NCBI GenBank assembly: GCA_903904755.1 | Contig: CAIVDV010000019.1 | Coordinates: 1-64,000 of the forward strand | DNA: 64,000 nucleotides | DNA from: an uncultured Acidobacteriaceae bacterium | Lineage (GTDB): Bacteria; Acidobacteriota; Terriglobia; Terriglobales; Acidobacteriaceae | Direction of reading: 5' to 3' | Shown here: one piece after another, positions 60,221 to 60,379 of the stretch | Layout: the number at the start of each line of letters is the position of its first letter | Position numbering within the stretch: the first letter of the stretch is position 1 | Notes under the pieces: model-generated | Told to the model about the DNA's origin: nothing | What the model saw: the letters and a program-made list of their open reading frames with translations, nothing else | The model's database searches: none | Position numbers and translations under genes: made by a program

Positions 60221-60251
60221 AAAAACCCGGCTCCCACTCAAGGGACCCGGG
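60221..60251 (-). terminator. Intrinsic terminator in the metY leader
   Basis: On the minus strand CCCGGGTCCC, a six-base loop, GGGAGCCGGG (nine of ten pairs) and then TTTTTC. It lies 53 bases before the metY start codon, so it would stop transcription before the gene, as an attenuator does. Confidence 0.78.
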
Positions 60252-60308
60252 CCTCTTACTTCTCGCTTTCGCCTGTTGTCAGGCTACCGAGCCGCAGACC
60301 GGGGTCCC
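60242..60308 (-). promoter_or_regulatory. Candidate antiterminator of metY-metX
   Basis: On the minus strand the segment at 60299-60308 (GGGACCCCGG, inside the leader ORF) can pair at nine of ten positions with 60242-60251 (CCCGGGTCCC), which is the 5' arm of the terminator. The two structures exclude each other. A small stable hairpin GCCTG/CAGGC (60271-60284) sits between them. A ribosome at the leader stop codon would cover the first segment and favour termination. Confidence 0.6.
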
Positions 60309-60379
60309 ATGCGCATACACATGCACATGCCGCACCCCATCATCTGGCTGGTCAGCTTCATCCACATCAGTATTCCCAT
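60284..60379 (-). CDS. Met/Cys-rich leader peptide of metY-metX
   Basis: A 31-codon frame ending in TAG. It has nine Met and three Cys codons; residues 13-24 read MMGCGMCMCMRM. It lies between the unknown gene at 60420 and the terminator before metY. Slow translation at Met or Cys codons would expose the antiterminator segment that starts at the last Met codon. No strong ribosome binding site is visible. TTGACA at about 60391-60396 with AATACT 18 bases on could be the promoter, in which case translation would start at the ATG at 60361 and give 25 residues. Translation is inferred, not shown. Confidence 0.62.
   Translation of the reverse strand: MGILMWMKLTSQMMGCGMCMCMRMGPRSAAR

Follow-up and report, generated by a model that had tools for sequence, protein, structure and literature searches.

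A candidate methionine/cysteine attenuator with a probably leaderless leader peptide upstream of metY-metX in an uncultured Acidobacteriaceae bacterium

Introduction

The window, the whole stretch of 64,000 nucleotides analysed here, comes from an uncultured Acidobacteriaceae bacterium and carries, upstream of metY and metX, a very short ORF rich in Met and Cys codons that is followed by a terminator-like sequence. The question is whether translation of this ORF might decide if transcription continues into the two genes. Control of methionine genes by SAM and SAH riboswitches, T-boxes and proteins of the MetJ, MetR and SahR type is listed in a 2014 overview (PMC4239095), and in Acidobacteriota almost no attenuator predicted in a 2010 survey had an assigned function (PMC2965389). 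We consider it very probable that the leader is a trp-type ribosome-mediated transcription attenuator for sulfur amino acids, sensing charged tRNA-Met and probably charged tRNA-Cys. The initial annotation had also read the region as trp-type attenuation, a reading that from sequence analysis retains its ORF, its mutually exclusive folds and their conservation in relatives, whereas its start codon and the details of how the ribosome covers the antiterminator arm are amended below; the regulation itself is inferred.

Organisation of the locus

The order on the minus strand is the protein gene at 60420-61295, the promoter, the mini-ORF, a GC-rich terminator, an RBS-like GAGGAGAG, metY and metX (Table 1), and the genes downstream are thus makers of the amino acid that would be sensed. 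The top-scoring MetX model for the metX product is TIGR01392, with 389.5 bits and under its own cutoff of 500, and a search of 60420-61250 against NCBIfam and Pfam gave no match. The window has 529 ORFs with a length of 12-45 aa, of which the leader ORF is the richest with 9 Met+Cys per 12 residues, the runners-up (six ORFs) having 5, and ATGTGYATGTGYATG occurs a single time in the 4.2-Mb genome. In L100, a same-genus relative of the window, the promoter of the metY leader is immediately preceded by a tRNA gene (RF00005, 3041-3112), and a tRNA gene was likewise seen by eye before the leader promoter in the same-genus relatives L101 and L213-L216, at the place where the window has the protein gene at 60420-61295.

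Table 1. Features of the metY-metX leader region in the window.
Feature	Coordinates	Strand	Details
Protein gene without known family, upstream of the promoter	60420-61295	-	
Promoter, sigma-70-like	60369..60398	-	TTGACA (60398-60393), 18 nt, AATACT (60374-60369); 10/12 matches
Leader ORF, probably leaderless, peptide MKLTSQMMGCGMCMCMRMGPRSAAR	60284..60361	-	stop TAG 60286-60284; ATG 7 nt past the -10 hexamer
Met/Cys core, leader codons 12-18 (MCMCMRM)	60308..60328	-	
Antiterminator arm A, GGGACCCCGG, within the ORF immediately 3' of the core	60299..60308	-	
Arm B, CCCGGGTCCC, partner of A (antiterminator) or C (terminator)	60242..60251	-	
Arm C, GGGAGCCGGG, 3' side of the terminator	60226..60235	-	
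U tract of the terminator, TTTTTCTTT	60217..60225	-	sequence and fold
metY, O-acetylhomoserine sulfhydrylase / homocysteine synthase	58864..60168	-	NCBIfam NF006096, 731 bits, cutoff 726
metX, homoserine O-acetyltransferase	57573..58787	-	NCBIfam NF001209, 385 bits, cutoff 331

Promoter and start codon

The leader was first described as a 31-codon ORF at 60284-60379 on the minus strand with nine Met and three Cys codons and the peptide MGILMWMKLTSQMMGCGMCMCMRMGPRSAAR, and the coordinates and codon counts are exact. Its start ATG at 60379, however, is located in the spacer between the two promoter hexamers, and the true start is likely ATG 60361, which gives a leader of 25 codons with seven Met, the start included, and three Cys. 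The promoter search found one promoter against 0.8 expected in shuffles of the same 1.8 kb, and the combination TTGAC-N17-20-ATACT-N5-8-ATG has one occurrence in the whole genome (4.2 Mb), at the window leader. A similar promoter is present upstream of the leader ATG in the relatives. In 46 family leaders an automatic search allowing 3-10 nt between the -10 region and the ATG placed 35, and the other 11 were placed by eye; the spacing in the 35 is 7 nt in 21, 6 nt in one, 8 nt in four, 9 nt in seven and 10 nt in two. The ATG at the commonest spacing of 7 nt is, in the window, ATG 60361. This distance from promoter to ATG suggests that the leader mRNA is leaderless. In one clade (e.g. L112) the gap looks like 14 nt, and a short 5' leader is therefore possible there. 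A 2011 prediction for three Acidobacteria genomes put the mean share of leaderless genes at 13.3% (PMC3160421), and leaderless leaders are also known in Actinobacteria (PMC8079986).

Terminator and antiterminator in the window

An intrinsic terminator ahead of metY-metX had been proposed, and the arrangement CCCGGGTCCC-TTGAGT-GGGAGCCGGG-TTTTTCTTT at 60251-60217 is supported by the fold; it is absent from the list given by a simple terminator scan, because the stem rule of the scan permits no bulge. The bases 60299-60308 can pair with 60242-60251 at 9 of 10 positions, exactly as claimed. In the predicted fold of the window RNA ending with arm B, the A:B pairing has a probability of about 1.0 at 9 of 10 bases of A, the probability that A pairs upstream in the free RNA being 0.07, and when arm C is added the minimum-energy fold is the terminator.

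Beginning at the final base of the leader's stop codon, the window also has a short hairpin (60271-60284), GCCTG-ACAA-CAGGC, with a z of -2.4, which is perhaps a pause signal. A hairpin around the leader stop was rejected as a general part of the leaders, being seen in some clades only, some of which enclose the stop codon; the mean z is -0.76 and a value below -2 is found in 16 of 73 leaders.

Occurrence among relatives

Relatives were scored with a detector that requires an ORF of no more than 65 aa with 5 or more Met+Cys within 12 residues. The family set consists of 53 metY orthologues with at least 70% identity, found by the metY protein alone and with pattern-chosen loci left out; an earlier tally, 76 of 91 f1 loci, contains loci chosen by their Met/Cys pattern, and counts from the protein search are therefore used. 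In the family of the window, taken as Acidobacteriaceae on the basis of named loci with 77-80% identity, the detector is positive at 43/53 loci and on the reverse strand at 4/53, and with at least 6 Met+Cys the numbers are 38/53 versus 0/53. A second acidobacterial family, f35, is positive at 12 of 13 loci. In the order of G373, 5/9 loci are positive when genus g141 is set apart, and the metY loci of that genus (f48 loci) are positive at 0/15. Twenty loci spread over the phylum gave three positives among 18 usable, and five loci of lower identity (L126-L130) gave none, with 2/5 on the reverse strand. None of 70 close metY relatives not labelled Acidobacteria, one of them labelled only 'bacterium', is positive.

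Weaker leaders of the MAMC type are present in three of the ten detector-negative family orthologues, L003, L007 and L113. In L086 and L097 the ORF is rich in Cys but lacks a convincing terminator, and the contig of L096 ends inside the leader, where MCMVCGPVRTALERRMR is visible; no leader was seen in the orthologues L103, L104, L106 and L109. The region before metY in L106 and L109 resembles, by eye, the end of another gene. In L086, L089 and L097 the ORFs before metY contain more Cys than Met (MRSCSCYRGMC in L089), and these Cys-dominated ORFs suggest that the sensed amino acid can shift.

For the comparisons below a set of 73 leaders was used, from which L086, L097 and L096 were dropped and in which L003, L007, L113, L228, L233 and L237 were kept by eye despite a score below the cutoff; the terminator arms of L087, L100, L101 and L213 were set by hand. 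Loci L210-L216 were picked by their Met/Cys pattern and are therefore relevant to the A:B pairing, not to the Met frequency. A search with ATGGCNATGTGYATG over 396 genomes of the phylum matched 38 genomes and was rejected as a route to further leaders, most of the 30 matches that were made into loci lying in long frames or being without leader features. The co-occurrence proposed as a check in the initial annotation is found: Met-rich ORF, terminator and alternative pairing are retained together in many relatives.

Conserved codons and reading frame

Relatives have cores such as MAMCMCM, NMCMSMRMPIC, MHMDMTMCC, MSMSMRMQMC and MCMSMWMCM, where the residues between the Met codons vary (A, C, S, R, P, H, D, T, W and Q), and insertions in the core preserve the reading frame. 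Met constitutes 13.5% of the codons of the 73 leaders in frame versus 0.3-0.4% in the other frames, and the cores contain 270 Met and 185 Cys codons. The Cys share is 9.0% in frame, 12.9% in the +1 frame and 2.6% in the remaining one. A T or C after an ATG creates a Cys codon in the +1 frame, which was therefore tested. This frame is mostly without a start, and 270 of the 275 NTG codons in the 73 cores are ATG, so that in-frame Met is what is kept. Since Cys is as frequent in +1 as in frame, Cys sensing is less certain; Met is better supported than Cys as the sensed amino acid, and selection for Cys is less certain.

Competing folds across relatives

With the full transcript, partition folding gives the B:C pairing a probability of at least 0.5 in 72 of the 73 leaders. 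In free RNA up to B the A:B pairing reaches 0.5 in only 28/73, and arm A often pairs upstream (mean probability 0.49 over the leaders), which bears on whether a pause or protector hairpin (1:2) of the trp type would sequester A when no ribosome is present; with the RNA behind a ribosome at the first core codon removed, A:B reaches 0.5 in 63/73. Removal of a competitor helps any pairing, and B arms were therefore swapped as a control. With the ribosome on the first core codon, pairing of B to the ORF is 0.92 for native and 0.78 for permuted arms (27 clusters; 1/20,000 permutations as high). Swapped B arms still reach 0.5 or above for pairing to the ORF in 84% of trials, native ones in 70/73 leaders, and the A:B specificity is therefore a difference of degree in a GC-rich RNA.

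The specificity is also seen in the duplex energies. A first permutation with 44 leaders, made without clustering, gave -15.8 for native arms versus -13.5 (0/20,000 as good), and only 19/44 leaders did better than 95 or more of 100 shuffled versions of their own A region. Single-linkage clusters at 60% (5 clusters; A:B 2,934/40,000) had no power, and the permutation was therefore redone with average linkage, one leader being taken from each of 27 clusters: the A:B duplex energy is -16.1 kcal/mol for native versus -13.3 kcal/mol for swapped arms, with 0/40,000 permutations as good, and for the longest helix 41/40,000 are as good. The A:C control gives a z of -2.0 (988/40,000) in the same clusters. 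Coarser clustering leaves a weak signal with 6 clusters (832/40,000) and none with 2 clusters (22,296/40,000).

Covariation was scored on alignment A1, which contains 46 leaders aligned with MAFFT. The terminator covaries strongly, scoring 0.402 versus 0.237 in shuffles (0/500), with 39/500 for pairs changed on both sides, while further pair types (365/500) are not above the shuffles. For the antiterminator the covariation is modest, 0.222 versus 0.188 (8/500), with 16/500 for the cells paired and 133/500 for pairs changed on both sides, and 70.7% of the cells are paired versus 35-45% when the arms are slid. The modest value is partly due to leader classes using registers that MAFFT leaves unaligned. 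A mutually exclusive antiterminator that extends into the leader ORF is thus found; it is modest on A1 and weaker in f35, where the A:B pairing of leaders L220, L224 and L227-L230 is weak.

If the ribosome is assumed to occupy 15 nt to each side of its P site, at least half of arm A would be covered in 0/73 leaders by a ribosome at the first core codon and in 33/73 by one at the last. A ribosome at the stop was originally thought to cover arm A, and this agrees with the window (0.58 covered), but only 20/73 leaders reach half. Where A is too distant from the stop, we infer that the ribosome at the stop would lie between A and B and keep them separated.

Other RNA control and a second operon in the phylum

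All three metY loci read in the sister family f24 (L195, L199 and L202) carry a SAM-I riboswitch (RF00162, 65-79 bits, cutoff 44.4), and five loci of f33, f70 and f5 have sub-threshold matches to SAM_alpha, 23-31 bits with a cutoff of 36. Upstream of metY in L190-L193 (f70 and f33), which have such sub-threshold matches, a conserved element, GTGGCGATTTAGGCAACTTGCTCCACG.TAAAAACTGCTAAAG, precedes a terminator, and a similar element is present in L008, where a search at the gathering threshold gave no Rfam match. The element is possibly a variant of the SAM-II type of riboswitch that is missed by the Rfam model.

Met/Cys-rich leaders with terminators, the latter seen by eye, are also found before a second operon at 5 of 24 loci (L262-L264, L268 and L269), one of the 24, L285, being without upstream sequence. 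Its genes encode a RimK-like ATP-grasp protein and a luciferase-like monooxygenase, the pair being seen in two loci, and its leaders occur in genomes without a metY match in the protein search. A role of this operon in sulfur supply is a guess.

Alternative explanations

The Rfam check suggested in the initial annotation, covering SAM riboswitches, T-box and other families, gave no family at threshold on the leader, and at E <=10 the only match is to ctRNA, 18 bits over the terminator with a cutoff of 50. Other acidobacterial metY genes carry SAM-I riboswitches, and this leader might be thought to hold an unrecognised SAM-like metabolite riboswitch with the Met-rich ORF being incidental; that is extremely unlikely, as no Rfam family matches at the gathering threshold and a metabolite aptamer does not explain Met codons kept in one frame. 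Cores like MCMCM resemble thiol and thioether metal ligands. The peptide could accordingly be one that senses Cu(I), other metals or redox state, its arrest and not the amino-acid supply controlling the terminator, but neither spacing nor identity is kept in the core, MSMSMRMQMC and MHMDMTMCC hold few Cys, the Met codons and their position ahead of arm A persist, and the genes downstream are metY-metX or the ATP-grasp/luciferase-like pair; we regard it as very unlikely.

A terminator combined with a conserved DNA or RNA motif (CATGGCCATGTGCATG), for instance an operator, would not involve the ribosome and would agree with the high similarity of ATGGCCATGTGCATGTGTATG across many f1 leaders. Diverged clades, however, retain mainly the in-frame ATG codons, the frame-preserving insertions do not fit a motif of this kind, and arm A fits its own arm B better than the B of other leaders, which leaves this explanation with little probability. 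A Cys-rich leader in the +1 frame, where ATGT and ATGC give TGT and TGC as in the mycobacterial poly-Cys leaders, was rejected and is scarcely credible. That frame has no stop within the core in 62/73 leaders and has a Cys share of 12.9% over the leaders, but a start codon within the transcript is present in only 18/73, the window has stops ahead of the core and no start in this frame, and the A of ATG, which would be free to vary if only the +1 Cys mattered, is almost invariably kept among the NTG codons.

Proposed mechanism

In the ribosome-mediated attenuator that we favour, RNA polymerase would start at about 60362, so that the transcript begins at or beside AUG 60361, and a ribosome would translate the 25-aa leader peptide. 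When charged tRNA-Met, or tRNA-Cys, is scarce, the ribosome should stall in the Met/Cys codons and leave arm A free; A would then pair with B before C has been transcribed, so that the terminator would be blocked and metY-metX transcribed, and readthrough would thus rise on shortage. When charged tRNAs are plentiful the ribosome would run through A to the stop, covering A or sitting between A and B, and with the ribosome at the stop B would pair with C and transcription would end. If initiation is indeed leaderless, it would solve a problem specific to methionine, where the codon used for sensing doubles as the start codon, as a 5'-terminal AUG would allow ribosomes to pick the right one among many. 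The leader would also go untranslated without charged initiator tRNA, and the window, where A:B has a probability of about 1.0 in free RNA, would still read through to the genes. That such leaders constitute a phylum-wide class of leaderless dual Met/Cys attenuators taking the place of SAM riboswitches is possible, but on balance somewhat doubtful.

Comparison with known systems

The leader resembles the trp-type attenuators trpL, hisL and leuL in its short ORF rich in codons for an amino acid, its competing antiterminator and terminator and its biosynthetic genes downstream, and differs in that Met and Cys codons are found together, in a probably leaderless ORF and in Acidobacteriota. Mycobacterial leaderless short ORFs with poly-Cys codons, attributed to Canestrari et al. 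in 2020, are reportedly cysteine-responsive attenuators. These are likewise short ORFs with Cys codons and, as the window leader probably is, leaderless, but their Cys codons are contiguous whereas the window leader alternates Met and Cys; in the leaders of the relatives the Met codons are interspersed with Cys or other codons, and an intrinsic terminator with its antiterminator is conserved. For the mycobacterial cys operons, the accessible text of a 2005 analysis reports no conserved terminator hairpin (PMC1262725).

The metL leader of Streptomyces lividans, located before metNIQ, is leaderless, contains ...ARCMCRRMCAF and has been proposed to be a methionine attenuator (PMC8079986), and it is thus similar in its leaderless start, its CMCRRMC and the proposed Met attenuation. 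It was described from one genome and for a transporter operon, it has no typical Rho-independent terminator according to its authors, and the accessible part of their report describes no antiterminator (PMC8079986). The metXZ RNA element of beta-proteobacteria has a terminator and antiterminator before metX or metZ, as here, but is a pseudoknot-like RNA with six conserved regions, and 'leader peptide' occurs 0 times in the main text of the paper (PMC4239095). No methionine attenuator in Acidobacteriota was found among the matches listed from the literature, a coverage that lies mostly outside the subscription journals. Given the leaderless metL and the poly-Cys precedents, the type of mechanism is a known one, and there is already a proposed Met leader; the complete anatomy, the combination of Met and Cys and the spread in Acidobacteriota appear to be new.

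If the leader is a conserved peptide attenuator, these bacteria would read the charging of tRNA with Met, perhaps also with Cys, and not SAM. It would assign a role to attenuators in Acidobacteriota, where few of them have one, and metY would be an example of control passing from one RNA mechanism to another inside a single phylum, while the choice of start codon by a Met-sensing leader would become a testable question.
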